Positions 17,867-44,372 of a stretch of 54,458 nt of DNA are shown here, in pieces. Every line of letters starts with the position of its first letter. Position 1 is the first letter of the stretch. This DNA is from a virus. A model generated the notes under the pieces. It did not search any database, was not told the origin of the DNA, and saw only the letters and a list, made by a program, of their open reading frames with translations. The translations under genes were made by a program, and so were the position numbers. The stretch lies in the IMG/VR virus record IMGVR_UViG_3300045256_000069, positions 1 to 54,458 of that record; one strand, given 5' to 3'.

Positions 17867-18214
17867 TCAGGCGGCCTTCTTGGCCTTCGCCGGCGCCGCG
17901 GACTTCTCCTTCTCGGCCGCCTTCTTGACCTTCTCGTCGCCGCGCAGCTTGTTGGCCACCTCGTCGAGCTCGGCGATGGTGTTCCAGCCGTAGCTGCGGC
18001 CGGCCTTCTTGATGTTCTTGTTCCGGAGGCCGACGCGGACGGACGCCTCCTTGATGCCGAGCTTCTTGGCGAGGTCGCTCACGCCGTACTTGAACTCGGG
18101 TTCGGCAGCCTTCGGCGCCTTCGTCTCCTTGGCCGGCGCGGCCTTGGCAGTCGCCTTCGTGTCCTTCGCATCGGCCTTCGACGGCTTCGCGGTCTTCTTC
18201 TCTTCCTTGGCCAT
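17867..18214 (-). CDS. Possible internal-start product: helicase C-terminal module alone
   Basis: In-frame ATG (MAKEEKKTAKP) at 18214 within the helicase gene is preceded by GAAAGGA with 6-base spacing, a better ribosome site than many true starts here. It would yield a separate 115-residue protein: Lys/Ala-rich arm, HTH-like module, Lys/Ala-rich tail, like a small histone-like or DNA-binding protein. Either the full helicase only, or both forms, could be made. Confidence 0.4.
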   Translation of the reverse strand: MAKEEKKTAKPSKADAKDTKATAKAAPAKETKAPKAAEPEFKYGVSDLAKKLGIKEASVRVGLRNKNIKKAGRSYGWNTIAELDEVANKLRGDEKVKKAAEKEKSAAPAKAKKAA

Positions 18215-19570
18215 GACAGTTCCTTTCGCGTGTTGTGCCTTCAACCGTTTGAAGACAAGATCATTTATCCGACTTTTGGACTGTAACGCCTGCAGCTGAT
18301 CTTCGTCAATAGTATTCTGTGCCATCAAGAAATAGAAGTCTACATATTTTTCTTGACCGTATCGCTCGAGCCGCGATTGGGCCTGCTCGAAGTCGATGTA
18401 GCTGTAGGTGCATGAATAGAATACCGCGTTGCACGCTTCGAACAAATCGACGCCAACTCCTCCTGTGCGCACCTGACACACGAGCGCATCAATGTCGCCA
18501 CGTTGAAATGCCGTGAGGATGTCCGAGCGTTCCTGTTTCTTGGCTGTGTCCCTGATCTTACCGTAGACTGACTTGACCGCGAGGTAGTGGCCACGAAGCA
18601 GAGCCTCGAGCATATGCACCTCATGAACGTACCGGCAGAACACGACGACCGGCGGCTTGAGCTGTGGCAACAATCGCTTGAGCGCGCGTTCCTTCGCTTT
18701 GCCCACTTTATGGATTTCCCCATCGTCATCGATCAAGAAGCCACCGGTGATCTGCGACAACTTACCCATGAGCGTCACCTTGAGTGGCGTTGTCACGGTG
18801 CCGGTCTCGCCAACCTCGATGGTCAGGTCTCGCTCGAGCTCATCGTAGGTCTGGGCTTGATTGCCCCACAGTGTGATGGGAACGATGTGCATCTTGCTTC
18901 CCTTCAGGTTGAGCACGCTGCGGTCTACACGCAGACACACGGGAGCAGCGCGCTTGAGGAAACGTTCCTGCATACCCGCTTTGAACTTGAACTTGTAGCC
19001 ACCGAAACCCGCCGGCCTCAGGTATCGATTGAAGAACGACTGCCAGTTGTCACCGAAGATGCTCGGTTCTGCGAAGCGCAGCTGAGCCCACAGGTCGACC
19101 GGAGATTTGTCAATCGGTGTACCACTCAGCACGCAACGCCTGGCCGCCCTGCGAAAGCGCCTAGCGTTTCTAGATGACAGCGATCCTCGCTGCTTCAGGC
19201 GTTGCGACTCATCGAACGCGACGAATGACCACGGCCACTTCTCGATGCGCTTCGCTAGCTTGGCTGTGAGTTGCTCGTAGTGCAGCAGCATGATGCGCGG
19301 ATGCGGCAGCTTCTTGAATGCCACGGGATCGCTCGTCACGTTGACGTGCGGCAGCAGCTCTTCGATCTTCGCAAGCCACGTGGTCAGCTTATTGGTCTTA
19401 AGGACGACGAGCAGCGCTTGGTAACCGGGCTGACGGCTTTCGCGGTCGATCACGCCCAGCGTCACGTAAGTCTTGCCTGTCCCCTGGTCGAAGAATAGAC
19501 ACGATCCCTCGTGTGTCAGAACGAACTCGGCCGCGGCTTTCTGGTAGTCGAAGAGCTTCTTCCACAGCAT
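17867..19570 (-). CDS. SNF2/DEAD-type helicase with C-terminal HTH-like module
   Basis: This 567-residue protein is a superfamily 2 ATPase. Walker A is DQGTGKTYV (about residue 28), the DExH-like box is FDESQRL (about 117), motif III is LSGTP (about 148), and motif VI is QAQSRLERYGQ (about 403). It would unwind or translocate on DNA during phage replication. After residue 455 comes a Lys/Ala-rich linker, then a small helical module (VSDLAKKLGIKEASVRVGLR...GWNTIAELDEVANKL) that also occurs in three other proteins of this genome, then another Lys/Ala tail. Confidence 0.85.
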   Translation of the reverse strand: MLWKKLFDYQKAAAEFVLTHEGSCLFFDQGTGKTYVTLGVIDRESRQPGYQALLVVLKTNKLTTWLAKIEELLPHVNVTSDPVAFKKLPHPRIMLLHYEQLTAKLAKRIEKWPWSFVAFDESQRLKQRGSLSSRNARRFRRAARRCVLSGTPIDKSPVDLWAQLRFAEPSIFGDNWQSFFNRYLRPAGFGGYKFKFKAGMQERFLKRAAPVCLRVDRSVLNLKGSKMHIVPITLWGNQAQTYDELERDLTIEVGETGTVTTPLKVTLMGKLSQITGGFLIDDDGEIHKVGKAKERALKRLLPQLKPPVVVFCRYVHEVHMLEALLRGHYLAVKSVYGKIRDTAKKQERSDILTAFQRGDIDALVCQVRTGGVGVDLFEACNAVFYSCTYSYIDFEQAQSRLERYGQEKYVDFYFLMAQNTIDEDQLQALQSKSRINDLVFKRLKAQHAKGTVMAKEEKKTAKPSKADAKDTKATAKAAPAKETKAPKAAEPEFKYGVSDLAKKLGIKEASVRVGLRNKNIKKAGRSYGWNTIAELDEVANKLRGDEKVKKAAEKEKSAAPAKAKKAA

Positions 19571-21729: not shown

Positions 21730-22780
21730 TGACCTTGAACTCCCGTTCCTTGATGAAGTCTGCGTCTGCGCCTGTCAGCTCAGCGCGGCAAATCGATGCA
21801 AACTCGCACCACTTGCAGTGCTGGTCAATCGTTTTGTGCTTCTTCTTTCCGATATTGTCTCGCATGTCGATTGCGGCCTCAACGAAGCCTTCGTACACGT
21901 TGTCCACAACGTTGCGAGAGATGGGCGTGAACACGCGGAAGAAATACTCGTTGCGGTTTTCGGCGAGCGACTTCAGTAGCGTCGGGTAGTTCTTCGCCTT
22001 GAAGCCATTCTCCTTGCACCACTGCTTGAACACGCTGGGCAACGAGTCGATCTTGGCCTGTGAGGGCTGACCGTTCTGAAGCAGCTTCGGGATCGCCGGC
22101 GGCTTCGACCGGATGTAATTCCACAGGGTGCCGTCGACCGGCTTCCAGCCGAGGATGTCCATCGCCTTCGCGTACACCGACGATTGCACGTTGAGCCAGC
22201 GGAAGTCTTCGCTCGGGCGCATCTTGAATGTCTTGTGCTCAGCGAGTGCGCGGTTCGTGCGCCACTTCGCCACGCCGTCGATAATGCCGGTAAAGGCTAG
22301 GCCGTCGTCCAGCTCGATCTCGAACGCGTGCTCGGACTTCTTGCCGTTGATCTTGATCATCTGCAGGTCGCCCTTTTGCGACCAGTGCTCGAAGTAGTCG
22401 GTCATGATGTAGTCGATGTCGACCAGAATGTCGCCATACATCTCGACCTCGGCGCTGAACATCTTGCGAGTGTCCATATCGACGTTGAGCGCCTCACGCC
22501 AGTCCTCGCCGTTCGCATCCAGCTCGATGGCCCTGTGAACGATCTTGCCGAACGCGAACGGGCGCTTGGTGCGCTTGGGCTCGAGTCGTTCGACGTGCTT
22601 CAGGTGCGCAGCGTACTTGCAGCGCAGCCACTGCTTCACTTTTGACTGGCCGACTTTGAAGACGCTTGAGCTGCCTTCCACTTCGCCAGAGTTATGCCCT
22701 TTCCCCACGGGCCGATCTTCGCGTCCGCCTCGAGCGGGACGCTCAGCTTGATCTCGAACACGTCGAGCAGTTTTGGCCAT
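21680..22780 (-). CDS. Cas4/RecB-like PD-(D/E)XK nuclease with Fe-S cysteines
   Basis: This 366-residue protein has a RecB-type nuclease core: GKIVHRAIE (His), FTGIIDGVAKW...ALAEHKTFK (D...ExK) and QSSVYAKAM (QxxxY motif). One Cys lies before the core (WLRCKYAAHL) and three after it (HCKWCEFASIC), the four-Cys iron-sulphur pattern of Cas4/AddB-type nucleases. It probably processes DNA ends for recombination. The ATG at 22780 has GGAG upstream but overlaps the polymerase gene by 145 bases; GTG at a GHNSG-like segment near 22710 is an alternative start. Confidence 0.8.
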   Translation of the reverse strand: MAKTARRVRDQAERPARGGREDRPVGKGHNSGEVEGSSSVFKVGQSKVKQWLRCKYAAHLKHVERLEPKRTKRPFAFGKIVHRAIELDANGEDWREALNVDMDTRKMFSAEVEMYGDILVDIDYIMTDYFEHWSQKGDLQMIKINGKKSEHAFEIELDDGLAFTGIIDGVAKWRTNRALAEHKTFKMRPSEDFRWLNVQSSVYAKAMDILGWKPVDGTLWNYIRSKPPAIPKLLQNGQPSQAKIDSLPSVFKQWCKENGFKAKNYPTLLKSLAENRNEYFFRVFTPISRNVVDNVYEGFVEAAIDMRDNIGKKKHKTIDQHCKWCEFASICRAELTGADADFIKEREFKVSESNQHEDEIAAKLDE

Positions 22781-25167
22781 CTCATGATCTCCAGCATTCG
22801 ATTGTGGACACGCTCGAGGTAGTCATTGCGAACCTCGATAAGACACGCATCATGCACAGTTGCGACAGGATAGACAATAGGTTCCGGGAACTCTTCTCTC
22901 AACTGAAGGAGCGACATGAGATTTAATTCGTTCGCGAACGATTGGACTGGTGAGTTGATTGCCTGACGTTCTGCTTCCATGCGCTCCATTGTCTTCTCGC
23001 GCGCCATGGCAGCTGGCAGTCGACGTTTACGACCGGACAGTGATCGCACGAAGCCGTGGCGCCGCGCGTGCTTGCGCTGCTGCTCGTGCCAATCCTCGAA
23101 GCCGGGGTAGAGGTCGAAGAAGTTGATGCGGCTTTCCTGTGCTTCCTCTTCGGTCACGATGACATCGTAGTTGTCCCGCGCGTAGATCATGAACTTCTTC
23201 CACCACATACCGAACAGGTAGCCGAAGTTCACGGCCTTAGCTTTCTTACGCAATTCCTTCCACGTCGGGTCGATCTCGGCACACGCATCGGGGCCAGCCT
23301 TGAACACGATGTCTAGCGCTTCGCCATAGTTCGTGATCTTGCGCTGCGTGAGCGTGCTCGCCGTTTCCTTGATCAGCTTGGGCGATGCACCGCCACGTCC
23401 CATCTCACGTATCATCGTGAGCCAATGCGCATCCTCGCCCTTGTGGAACACACGCAGCATGTTGGTCTCGTTCGCCAGCTCGGCCGCAATGCGTAGCTCG
23501 ATCTGTGACAAGTCGACTTCCAGCAGCGTGTACCCCTCGGGCGCGGTGATCAGCGACCGGATGCGAGGATCGCGTGGCACCTGCTGCAGGTTCGGATGCT
23601 CACAGGACAAACGACCCGTGACTGTGCCATGCAACTTGAACGAGGGATGAATGCGGCTGCCTTCAAGGAATGGCTTCCAGCCTTCGATGAATGACGACAG
23701 TTGCTTCTGCGCCGCACGCCACCTAAGCAACGCCTTGGCGATTGGATGATTGATGCGCTTGAGCACCGACTCGCTGCACGAGTCTGCGCCGCCCTTCGTC
23801 TTCTCGACCGACTTGATCTTGAGCTTGGTGAACAGCAATTCGCCGAGCTGCTTCGGTGAGCCCCAATTGATGTCGCCATAGGGCTTCAGCTCTGCGAGCG
23901 CACCAGCGATCTCATTGCGCAGGTATTCCTCGGCAACCTCGAACTGGTCCACGTTGATGAAGACGCCATGATACTCTATGCGAGTGAACAGCTTGGCGCA
24001 CGGAAACAAGATTTCATCGTAGACCTTGGCGACCTCGGGGTCCTTGTCGAGTTGCTTGCGCAGCTTGAAGTGAAGCTTGCGGGTGTAGAGCAGGTCTTTG
24101 CCCTGATACTCGCAACACTCGGCGAGCGGGCCACGAAACTGCTTGACCTCCTTGGACACGTCATAGTCGGGCGCGTTGAAATGAACCTTGCTTAGGAACT
24201 TGAGGCCGTGCTCGCTGTTCTCGTCAATCATGTAGTGCATGAGCATGGTGTCGCTTTCCCAATGCTCAAGCCAGTTGTAACCGTATCGCACCCACGTCCA
24301 CAGGAAGTCGAACTTGCCGTTCTGCGTCGTGAACCGGACGTCTCCTTCCTGAAGCTTCCAATTGATCTTGCGCATCATGCGCTTGATGTCTTTGAACGTC
24401 CACTTAACCTCGTCGTGGATCAGTGGGATCGTCCAGTGTGCGCGCTTCGTGCCGAAGCCGAGCGACATGATCTCGGCACCAAACTCCCAAGGGTACAGGC
24501 CACTCGTCTCGAGGTCATAGCTGGTCAGTCCGTAGAAGTCATCGAGGAACTCATCGAACGTGTCCCAGTCTGTGACAATACGAAGGTTGAGCTCCTCCTC
24601 CTTGCGGATCGCGCCGTTCTCAACGATGTCGGCGAAGTTTTGCAGGTCATGCTGCAGGATCACTTCCTGCCGCGGATCGTACTCGACGTAGCTTGGCGAG
24701 TATATCGGGAAGAAGATCATCGAGACGTCGCCACTCTCCGCAGTCACCGGTCGACCGCGATGGTTCTTGATGCCCGTCTTGTTCATCACGCCGGCTAGGG
24801 CTGTGCTCCCGACCACCAGGACGAACTTCGGTTGCACCTCGGCGATCTGTGCATCGAGCCATTTGCGGCATGCCTTTATCTGTGCTTTGGTGGGCTTGTC
24901 CGTCGCGCAACTGACGGCATAGCAGAAGAACATCTTGCTGGTGTCGAGGCCGACATCCTCGAGCATCTCGATCAACTTGTCGGGCGGTTTGATCTCGCCA
25001 CGCTTTTGCTCACGCTCACTCGGAGCGTCGAGCACGACCATGATCTTGCGATGCTTGATCGGTGATCCCAACAAACAAGCCCGGTCAACTGTTGCACCGA
25101 GCTTGCAGAGGCGGCAGTTGACGTCCCGCTTGAGCGGAGCGTCCAGGTTAATCTCGAGCTGGCTCAT
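22636..25167 (-). CDS. DNA polymerase I family, SPO1-type, with N-terminal UDG-like domain
   Basis: This 843-residue replicative polymerase has three parts. Residues 1-190 resemble family 4 uracil-DNA glycosylases, with four Cys in cluster positions (C18, C21 and SCATDKPTKAQIKAC), but the usual active-site GEAPG is DAPSE and the motif 2 HPS is SPS. Residues about 200-400 hold a 3'-5' exonuclease (YDLETSG, QNGKFDF, YQGKD). The PolA palm has DLSQIELR, RKKAKAVNFGYLFG and VHDA; the last is usually HDE. The start chosen overlaps the deaminase stop (ATGA); a longer frame to 25269 is unlikely. Confidence 0.9.
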   Translation of the reverse strand: MSQLEINLDAPLKRDVNCRLCKLGATVDRACLLGSPIKHRKIMVVLDAPSEREQKRGEIKPPDKLIEMLEDVGLDTSKMFFCYAVSCATDKPTKAQIKACRKWLDAQIAEVQPKFVLVVGSTALAGVMNKTGIKNHRGRPVTAESGDVSMIFFPIYSPSYVEYDPRQEVILQHDLQNFADIVENGAIRKEEELNLRIVTDWDTFDEFLDDFYGLTSYDLETSGLYPWEFGAEIMSLGFGTKRAHWTIPLIHDEVKWTFKDIKRMMRKINWKLQEGDVRFTTQNGKFDFLWTWVRYGYNWLEHWESDTMLMHYMIDENSEHGLKFLSKVHFNAPDYDVSKEVKQFRGPLAECCEYQGKDLLYTRKLHFKLRKQLDKDPEVAKVYDEILFPCAKLFTRIEYHGVFINVDQFEVAEEYLRNEIAGALAELKPYGDINWGSPKQLGELLFTKLKIKSVEKTKGGADSCSESVLKRINHPIAKALLRWRAAQKQLSSFIEGWKPFLEGSRIHPSFKLHGTVTGRLSCEHPNLQQVPRDPRIRSLITAPEGYTLLEVDLSQIELRIAAELANETNMLRVFHKGEDAHWLTMIREMGRGGASPKLIKETASTLTQRKITNYGEALDIVFKAGPDACAEIDPTWKELRKKAKAVNFGYLFGMWWKKFMIYARDNYDVIVTEEEAQESRINFFDLYPGFEDWHEQQRKHARRHGFVRSLSGRKRRLPAAMAREKTMERMEAERQAINSPVQSFANELNLMSLLQLREEFPEPIVYPVATVHDACLIEVRNDYLERVHNRMLEIMRWPKLLDVFEIKLSVPLEADAKIGPWGKGITLAKWKAAQASSKSASQK

Positions 25168-25628
25168 TGATCCACAAACTGACCCGTTTCCCAATTGATC
25201 ATATACCCGCTCGGCGTCAGCCTGAACAGCGAGACTCCAGCCGCCTTGAACCCGACGAGGTGTTGCCAACTGCGGTATTCGTCGCGATACACCACGCGCT
25301 TGATGCCCGACTCGATGACCTTGATCGTGCAGGCCTCACAGGGCGAGTTGGTGACATACAACGTCGTGGCGCCGTCGCACACGAAACCCTTGGCGGCTGC
25401 GCGCCTCAAGGCGTTGTCCTCGGCGTGCACCGAGCGCGTGCATGAGGGTATGCCGCAATCAGGACCTGTGCAGTGCTCATCGCCGCTCGGCGGGCCGTTG
25501 TAGCCGACGCTGACGACATCGTTGGCGTGGACGATGATCGCGCCGACGTTGAGACGCTTGCAGGTCGAGCGACGAGACGCCGCCTCGCACATCATCATCC
25601 ACATCTGGTCTCTAGAGATACGTGTCAC
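25164..25628 (-). CDS. dCMP deaminase (ComEB-like)
   Basis: This 154-residue zinc enzyme converts dCMP to dUMP. It shows VGAIIVHANDVVSVGYNGPP, HAEDNAL (zinc His and catalytic Glu) and SPCEACT (two zinc Cys), with extra Cys in HCTGPDCGIPSC typical of dCMP rather than cytidine deaminases. GTG start overlaps the preceding stop (GTGA), and its own stop overlaps the polymerase ATG. In phage with modified pyrimidines this enzyme shifts the dCMP/dUMP balance. Confidence 0.9.
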   Translation of the reverse strand: MTRISRDQMWMMMCEAASRRSTCKRLNVGAIIVHANDVVSVGYNGPPSGDEHCTGPDCGIPSCTRSVHAEDNALRRAAAKGFVCDGATTLYVTNSPCEACTIKVIESGIKRVVYRDEYRSWQHLVGFKAAGVSLFRLTPSGYMINWETGQFVDQ

Positions 25629-43653: not shown

Positions 43654-44004
43654 ATGATAGTCTTGAAGCACCTCTGCCGCGAGTTCGACCTTGAGCCACG
43701 TCGCTTGCGGATGGTCCTGCGCTCACACTACGGCAACCGAGGGAGATGGAAATGGGAAGACGACGCAAGCGAACTGAAAACGATCCGCGACCTGTTGCGG
43801 GATACATTGAACCGTCCAGCCCCCAAAGGCCGCCCACCTCGTGCCTCTACTTCCACAAGGACGGTCGAGACCTCATCGTCAACTTCTGCCACGACGGCGC
43901 AGCAGCCCGATACCTCGAGCTGGTTGGCGAAGGCGAAGGTCCGTACCGTTGGCGGAAAGACGAAGCTGGTCGTCACGCGATCATCTACGAAAGCGGCATC
44001 GTAG
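43654..44004 (+). CDS. HTH-like module protein, overlapping the next gene
   Basis: This is a 116-residue frame. GGAGG lies six bases before the ATG, the best ribosome site nearby, so translation must start here. Residues 1-53 contain the module seen in three other proteins (LKHLCREFDLEPRRLRMVLR...GRWKWEDDASELKTIRDLL). The Ser/Thr-rich rest overlaps the next gene in another frame by 259 bases and may be less constrained. It is the first rightward early gene. Confidence 0.55.
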   Translation: MIVLKHLCREFDLEPRRLRMVLRSHYGNRGRWKWEDDASELKTIRDLLRDTLNRPAPKGRPPRASTSTRTVETSSSTSATTAQQPDTSSWLAKAKVRTVGGKTKLVVTRSSTKAAS

Positions 44005-44372
44005 CCCGCGCCTCGTCACTCGAGGAGCTGGAGCGGATCATCGAGTCCGATCCTCTCGATGAGCTGCCTGAACCGCACGAGCGGAACATCGCCAACTTCA
44101 AGAGCGATCACGTCCGCGAGTACGTTCCTCGCGAGACACGGAAGCAGAAGCGTGAGCGTCGAGCTGGCGAAGAGCGGGAGCCAAAGCAACCGCGCTTGCC
44201 GAAGCCCGACACGTCCGGTCTCGTAGGCGTGAGCTGGCTCGCAGAGAAGCTCAACGTCGAAGGCAAAGACGTACGGGTTGCGCTACGTGCGCAGTTCAAG
44301 AAGCCTGACATCGGTTGGCTGTGGGACCCTACCGAAGCCGAGAAGGTTCTCAAGTCCCTGAAGCTACGTTAA
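43746..44372 (+). CDS. Protein with C-terminal HTH-like module, 208 aa
   Basis: This protein has a central alpha/beta region (LYFHKDGRDLIVNFCHDGAA; YESGIVARASSLEELERII), a Lys/Arg/Glu-rich linker, and a C-terminal module (VSWLAEKLNVEGKDVRVALR...IGWLWDPTEAEKVLKSL) closely similar to that of the helicase. The ATG at 43746 has GAGGGAG just upstream, inside the previous gene. It could be a DNA-binding early protein that targets the same partner as the helicase. Confidence 0.6.
   Translation: MEMGRRRKRTENDPRPVAGYIEPSSPQRPPTSCLYFHKDGRDLIVNFCHDGAAARYLELVGEGEGPYRWRKDEAGRHAIIYESGIVARASSLEELERIIESDPLDELPEPHERNIANFKSDHVREYVPRETRKQKRERRAGEEREPKQPRLPKPDTSGLVGVSWLAEKLNVEGKDVRVALRAQFKKPDIGWLWDPTEAEKVLKSLKLR

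Follow-up and report, generated by a model that had tools for sequence, protein, structure and literature searches.

The window analysed here covers positions 1 to 54,458 of a virus record of IMG/VR (IMGVR_UViG_3300045256_000069), and its minus strand carries an SNF2-type helicase gene whose parts are collected in Table 1. Both helicase domains scored over the Pfam cut-offs (70.7 bits against 24.9 for PF00176 and 41.5 against 23.5 for PF00271), and residues 4-468 of the ORF matched the SNF2-type phage helicases of phrog_62 (E=4e-96). The same strand carries, as neighbours of the helicase gene, genes for a family A DNA polymerase, for a PD-(D/E)XK nuclease, for an AAA_24 ATPase and for a DUF669 protein, and also a VRR-NUC-like gene that scores under the cut-off of Pfam. 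In the record of a Desulfofustis phage an exonuclease and a Sak4-like annealing protein are annotated at similar places, matched by position only. The neighbouring genes make replication or recombination the likely setting of this cluster. The polymerase domain belongs to an ORF at 22636-25269 (minus strand) that has an additional uracil-DNA-glycosylase superfamily domain (residues 73-201, E=1.6e-15), N-terminal to the 3'-5' exonuclease and family A DNA polymerase domains.

Table 1. Features of the helicase gene and of the small gene nested at its 3' end (coordinates of the window).
Feature	Position	Strand	Evidence
Whole ORF of 567 aa, SNF2-type helicase with C-terminal module, uninterrupted by a stop	17867..19570	-	
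SNF2-related helicase domain (residues 9-252)	18815..19546	-	PF00176, E=1.4e-19
Helicase C-terminal domain (residues 293-405)	18356..18694	-	PF00271, E=1.8e-10
End of the helicase tail (residues 448-452)	18215..18229	-	Alignment; approximate place, in relatives, of the helicase stop or of the onset of an out-of-frame run-on
Shine-Dalgarno-like GAAAGGA, 6 bases before ATG	18221..18227	-	Sequence; SD at the matching place in relatives
Putative ATG start inside the ORF, in frame (M453 in the fusion, M1 in the module)	18212..18214	-	
Putative nested gene, 115-aa module, with the stop of the helicase ORF	17867..18214	-	Gene of its own, separate or out of frame, at 51 of the 63 classified junctions
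N-terminal Lys/Ala-rich tail (module residues 1-40)	18095..18214	-	Low model confidence, probably disordered
Predicted winged-helix-like domain (module residues 41-91)	17942..18094	-	AlphaFold2, pLDDT ~90
C-terminal Lys/Ala-rich tail (module residues 92-115)	17870..17941	-	Composition, AlphaFold2

The minus strand at the border between helicase and module reads CGCGAAAGGAACTGTCATGGCC, where GAAAGGA (18227-18221) is followed by six bases and then by the ATG (18214-18212). This ATG is codon 453 of the ORF 19570-17867, and 115 codons run from it to the common stop. The first-pass annotation had drawn attention to this motif and to the Lys/Ala-rich product of 115 residues that would start there, and both were confirmed (27 Lys and 25 Ala, with a computed mass of 12.3 kDa and pI of 10.0). 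Its title spoke of releasing the helicase module, but the part that would be freed is the C-terminal module and not the helicase. With an internal start codon, a ribosome-binding site and a common stop, the arrangement is that of an in-frame gene within a gene. Taken alone, the signal in the window is not beyond chance. Four of the eight in-frame ATGs of the ORF (codons 1, 268, 320 and 453) have a Shine-Dalgarno (SD) match of five or more bases, and shuffling of synonymous codons produced an equally good SD before ATG 18214 in 226 of 2000 trials. The mRNA around the start is weakly structured (4% of the helicase windows are as weak), a property that is not general among fused relatives (median 14%), two of which are rather structured (L121, 96%; L161, 80%). 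From the window alone, the SD and the methionine might be a coincidence and the helicase an ordinary one that yields a single product and has a tail rich in Lys and Ala, and the border start acquires significance only through its conservation among relatives.

The module itself is predicted to fold as a compact core between basic tails. AlphaFold2, run with 21 sequences from the window and IMG/VR, gave a core (residues 41-90) of two short helices, a small wing and a long helix extending to residue 104, with pLDDT values of 54-64 in the tails against ~90 in the core. Seven residues (R60, L63, R64, K70, Y75, G76 and W77) are invariant among 20 aligned sequences. Likeness to solved structures is only moderate and includes the DNA-binding domains of pSK1 Par and RacA, MerR regulators and the N-domain of IF2. 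The best Foldseek match in PDB was the DNA-binding domain of pSK1 Par (probability 0.93 but E 0.25), and the VIA Z scores (5.3 for both pSK1 Par and RacA, 6.1 for the N-domain of IF2) stayed below the standout level. No Foldseek match reached E<=0.001 in PDB or BFVD, the best E in a PDB profile search was 0.56, and no Pfam family scored over its cut-off with the module of the window, while HTH_17 appeared as a weak match in four of 20 relatives (best E 0.016). The core is predicted to be winged-helix/MerR-like or IF2-N-like, and binding of DNA is likely on account of this predicted type of fold and of the charge. The comparison to a small histone made in the first-pass annotation fits the basic, Lys/Ala-rich composition, but as a label it is weak, since the core is predicted to be winged-helix-like; the listed Pfam matches with an E of at most 1 (for the relatives, 25 of 28 families) included no H1 or HU family. 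The stretch that follows the ATG had been taken for a linker at a natural domain border, a description that is too narrow, given that the small gene of the relatives begins with a similar Lys/Ala-rich tail.

A way to judge the internal start is to see how helicase and module are joined elsewhere. Scans of IMG/VR (one of which took in 80 of 171 relatives) together with phage records provided 66 distinct junctions with both parts found, counted as distinct by 180 bases of sequence, so that near-copies remain, and 63 of these could be classified. The module was a separate gene in 27, overlapped the helicase out of frame in 24 and was fused to it in frame in 12, the window among them. Seven of the out-of-frame overlaps are short and ordinary (4-26 bases) and the other 17 span 35 or more bases. 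The out-of-frame tails of the helicase vary freely, with the stop located anywhere from 4 to 229 bases beyond the module start. In the Desulfofustis phage the helicase ORF overruns the start of the small gene by 82 bases and in MW202777 by 229 bases, out of frame in both, and in both the small gene is preceded by its own SD and opens with ATG-GCC. The module of separate and out-of-frame genes starts at the place that corresponds to ATG 18214, and so is independent there of the helicase start. This supports the earlier suggestion that the helicase may be a fusion in which the second part has retained a start of its own.

The junctions left unclassified were L183 and L184, where the module was not nearby, and L103/L066, in which the start (SD, ATG, MSKTEK) lies in the helicase frame and the domain in another one (L066, 2925-3240), either a sequencing error or a broken gene. 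At a further 41 loci (not deduplicated) the helicase was matched and the module was not; several of them are cut by contig ends and most are distant. Five of these loci were re-examined. L167 and L177 revealed a weak, separate module-like ORF; in L138, L153 and L016 the helicase is closed by a stop, and a module is absent within 600 bases. The absence of a module beside the related helicases of L138, L153, L016/L017 and Acinetobacter phage 4316 indicates that the pairing of helicase and module is not universal. Neither a scan of viral contigs with the protein of the window alone as query (25 pattern matches) nor one of genome contigs with A4 (24 pattern matches) retrieved any relatives.

An SD of at least four bases precedes the module start in 62 of the 63 junctions (59 ATG and four GTG starts). 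In 11 of the 12 fused genes the SD at the border start matches over five or more bases, and in all 12 over four or more. Within the helicase domains of the same genes, five or more bases are matched at 8 of 107 in-frame ATGs and at 314 of 5173 codon positions, and four or more at 21 of 107 and 1151 of 5173, respectively. Fisher's test of border starts against in-frame ATGs gave p ~8e-10 (5e-9 without L031, a doubtful and distant fused row), values that are indicative only and overstate the significance, since the rows are related and some are near-copies. A four-base match alone is weak evidence, as one occurs at 22% of codon positions across the helicase domains of the fused genes; that of L092 (= L058) is AAGG at a spacing of 11. 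The main rule for picking starts prefers SDs, and we also applied one blind to them (the most upstream ATG, or else GTG, past the helicase end), which selected the same codon in 12/12 fused genes and 55/63 junctions overall and left an SD of at least four bases in 59/63. The residues preceding the border start vary between fused genes, with tails ending in HAKGTV, TEGRPS, RRNV, KRRRPT and others. The SD occurs in all three phases among them, but in fused genes the phase follows from the spacing, and of the two only the variation of the encoded residues serves here as evidence. In L121 (= L081) the border start is GTG, a valine in the fusion, which argues that what was kept is the start function and not a methionine. 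A chance origin, which the window alone could not reject, is rejected by the junction comparison, by the conservation of the SD in fused genes and by the helicase tree (see below): at 51 of the 63 junctions the corresponding start belongs to a gene that stands apart from the helicase or lies in another frame, which leaves coincidence extremely improbable.

Fusion is also found in isolated phages. Among 837 phage records with helicase relatives, 60 of them listed, we examined 13, of which eight have the module fused (PMBT14, Almagne, Lebethron, STP12, P744, Serbin, Tlacuache and Opt-155), two separate and two overlapping, while Acinetobacter phage 4316 lacks it. The module of PMBT14 is matched by 13 records, eight of them examined and the remainder being STP9 and four RefSeq duplicates. 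The helicase ORFs of the eight fused phages have 660-677 codons (that of STP12 measured from stop to stop), with AGGA or GGAG located 8-9 bases ahead of an in-frame border ATG followed by GCT or GCC. An SD of at least four bases is present at the border start in 8/8, against 19/102 of the upstream in-frame ATGs, although these SDs are just four bases long and several of the phages are near-copies. Seven of the eight records annotate a single CDS and give an isolation source; that of STP12 is unannotated and marked unverified. In the Brevundimonas phages Strzyga and Polewnik, on the other hand, the homologue of the module is a separate annotated CDS of 93 aa, in the same order as in the window, and the helicase stop lies 2 bases before its ATG.

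The occurrence of fusion in other genomes bears on a more trivial explanation, that an assembly or sequencing error removed the helicase stop of the window. The window comes from an IMG/VR virus record, assembled, as far as can be told, without culture, which leaves room for such a slip. However, 11 other contigs (one doubtful) and the eight named phages are fused as well, and in the alignment the helicase frame of the window is conserved as far as RLK, with an intact module beginning at its own start. The sister of the window, L101 (= L033; 51% identity), is located on a different contig and is fused too, making an assembly slip unlikely in the window. All considered, the probability of an error is next to nil.

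In order to follow the history of the junction we have used a tree of 61 helicases (leaving out L031 and the short L107), on which the fused state changed at least six times, four of these changes being forced by well-supported branches (5-6 in bootstrap trees), and the frame relation between helicase and module at least 21 times. These counts do not tell gains from losses. An earlier quick tree of 51 rows had given four changes of the fused state, and we prefer the more careful 61-row tree. Fused rows include a supported group of five (L099, L105, L113, L121 and L161), the pair formed by the window and L101, and L092, which sits amid 22 separate rows. The changes on the tree imply that the frame relation drifts while the start of the small gene stays.

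It could be argued that the fusion is permanent, with the module serving only as a C-terminal DNA-binding arm of the helicase and the SD and ATG being relics of a former gene. The fused state does span deep splits, in the group of five and in the window with L101, and eight of the examined named phages are fused. But if nothing other than the fusion were made, the SD and the start at the border could decay unhindered, and yet an SD of five or more bases persists in 11 of the 12 fused genes, deep groups included, while the residues around it drift, and where the ATG has been replaced the substitute, GTG, is still a start codon. We regard this explanation as distinctly improbable. Harder to set aside is the opposite view, that only the free module matters and that read-through is neutral, with the fused tail of no more consequence than the out-of-frame ones. 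The freely varying length of the latter and the many changes of frame relation fit this view, which is compatible with a nested gene and differs solely in denying the fusion any role. On the other side, fused groups have persisted over deep splits, and a basic winged-helix tail may well change how a helicase behaves. We give neutrality somewhat less than an even chance.

With these comparisons in hand, we consider it highly probable that ATG 18214 starts an independent small gene and that the helicase upstream has lost its stop in frame, so that two products are to be expected; the tail of the helicase gene is very probably a second, small gene of DNA-binding type with its own start signal. 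The proposed scenario, based on sequence comparison, is as follows. The small gene comes after the SNF2-type helicase gene, with its putative ribosome-binding site in the last codons of the latter. The helicase stop is not fixed in this group of phages and falls either before the small gene or beyond its start, where the helicase runs on out of frame or, as in the window, in frame. From an mRNA that covers the helicase region, translation starting at 19570 would produce the helicase-module fusion of 567 aa (64 kDa), and translation starting at 18214, independent or coupled to ribosomes that reach the end of the helicase, would produce the free module. As the helicase reads into the module in frame, one open frame should give two products. 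Ribosomes would then use the internal start, both proteins would coexist in the cell and the module would bind nucleic acid alongside the helicase, in a cluster devoted to replication or recombination. By analogy with Cas11 and with the C-terminal chains of endolysins, which join their long forms in assemblies, one could go further and imagine fusion and free module in a single complex, with an excess of free winged-helix copies that oligomerise with the tethered one and hold the helicase on DNA. We see this extension as rather unlikely; if true, the repeated loss of the stop would toggle between separate and tethered subunits, leaving the start of the small gene untouched.

In-frame internal starts are familiar in phage genes such as T7 gene 4 (4A/4B), phiX174 A/A* and lambda C/Nu3. 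What sets the window apart from these is that its module is homologous to a free-standing gene of the relatives and is fused to an SNF2-type helicase. Cas11 of type I-D, I-B and I-C CRISPR systems is a small C-terminal protein whose translation begins in frame within cas10d or cas8, close to the 3' end of the gene, and it is encoded by a separate gene in some other systems (PMC10212523, PMC11899642); it shares a complex with the large-subunit product (PMC10327210). The likeness lies in the position of the start near the 3' end of a large gene, in the small C-terminal protein and in its being a separate gene elsewhere; the proteins and their function are different, the products of the window are predicted from sequence, and the phage relatives have out-of-frame overlaps too. 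In the rpnL/rpnS genes within genes, an internal start that has a ribosome-binding site allows separate translation of a C-terminal domain; rpn genes have an internal transcription start as well, and RpnS blocks a toxic nuclease (PMC10327210). Like RpnS, the phage module is a C-terminal domain with a putative internal start and ribosome-binding site of its own, but it implies no toxicity. Two-polypeptide endolysins, which are frequent, are also phage genes with this architecture, their two in-frame overlapping ORFs having a common stop and having been shown to yield two polypeptides (PMC9430671), although they are cell-wall enzymes and not DNA enzymes. Strzyga and Polewnik offer a homologous pair in equal order, but as separate genes.

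In literature searches on internal starts in phages, on SNF2 helicases with an internal start and on the named phages, the titles and abstract openings among the matches listed did not describe the nested gene, and no paper was found that joined bacteriophage overlapping genes with stop codon loss, gene fusion and an internal start (at least four topics together). In-frame internal starts that yield C-terminal proteins are already known, and the phage helicase with its module would be a new case of this kind. Gene callers give one helicase where two proteins are probably made, and a small gene of DNA-binding type is thereby hidden in 12 virus contigs (one doubtful) and in the eight named phages. 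The relatives form an unusually complete natural series of separate genes, out-of-frame overlaps and in-frame fusions, each in several lineages, in which the start signal is retained as the reading frames shift. Isolated phages, for example Pseudomonas phage PMBT14, make the nested gene testable.

Two further observations concern the surroundings of the helicase gene and the distribution of the domain. The VRR-NUC-like ORF (19844-19398, minus strand) overruns the helicase start by ~57 codons out of frame (overlap 19398-19570), another junction of the cluster at which the upstream stop lies deep within the next gene. A search of the window against its own record revealed the winged-helix-like domain once more, in the C-terminal region of a 208-aa ORF on the plus strand (43746-44372, match at 44139-44348; E=1.1e-4, 34% identity), and a similar domain recurs in one other protein of PMBT14 (212 aa, E 5.9e-6) and of Serbin (239 aa, E 4.6e-5). 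These second copies suggest that the domain may be a reused phage module.
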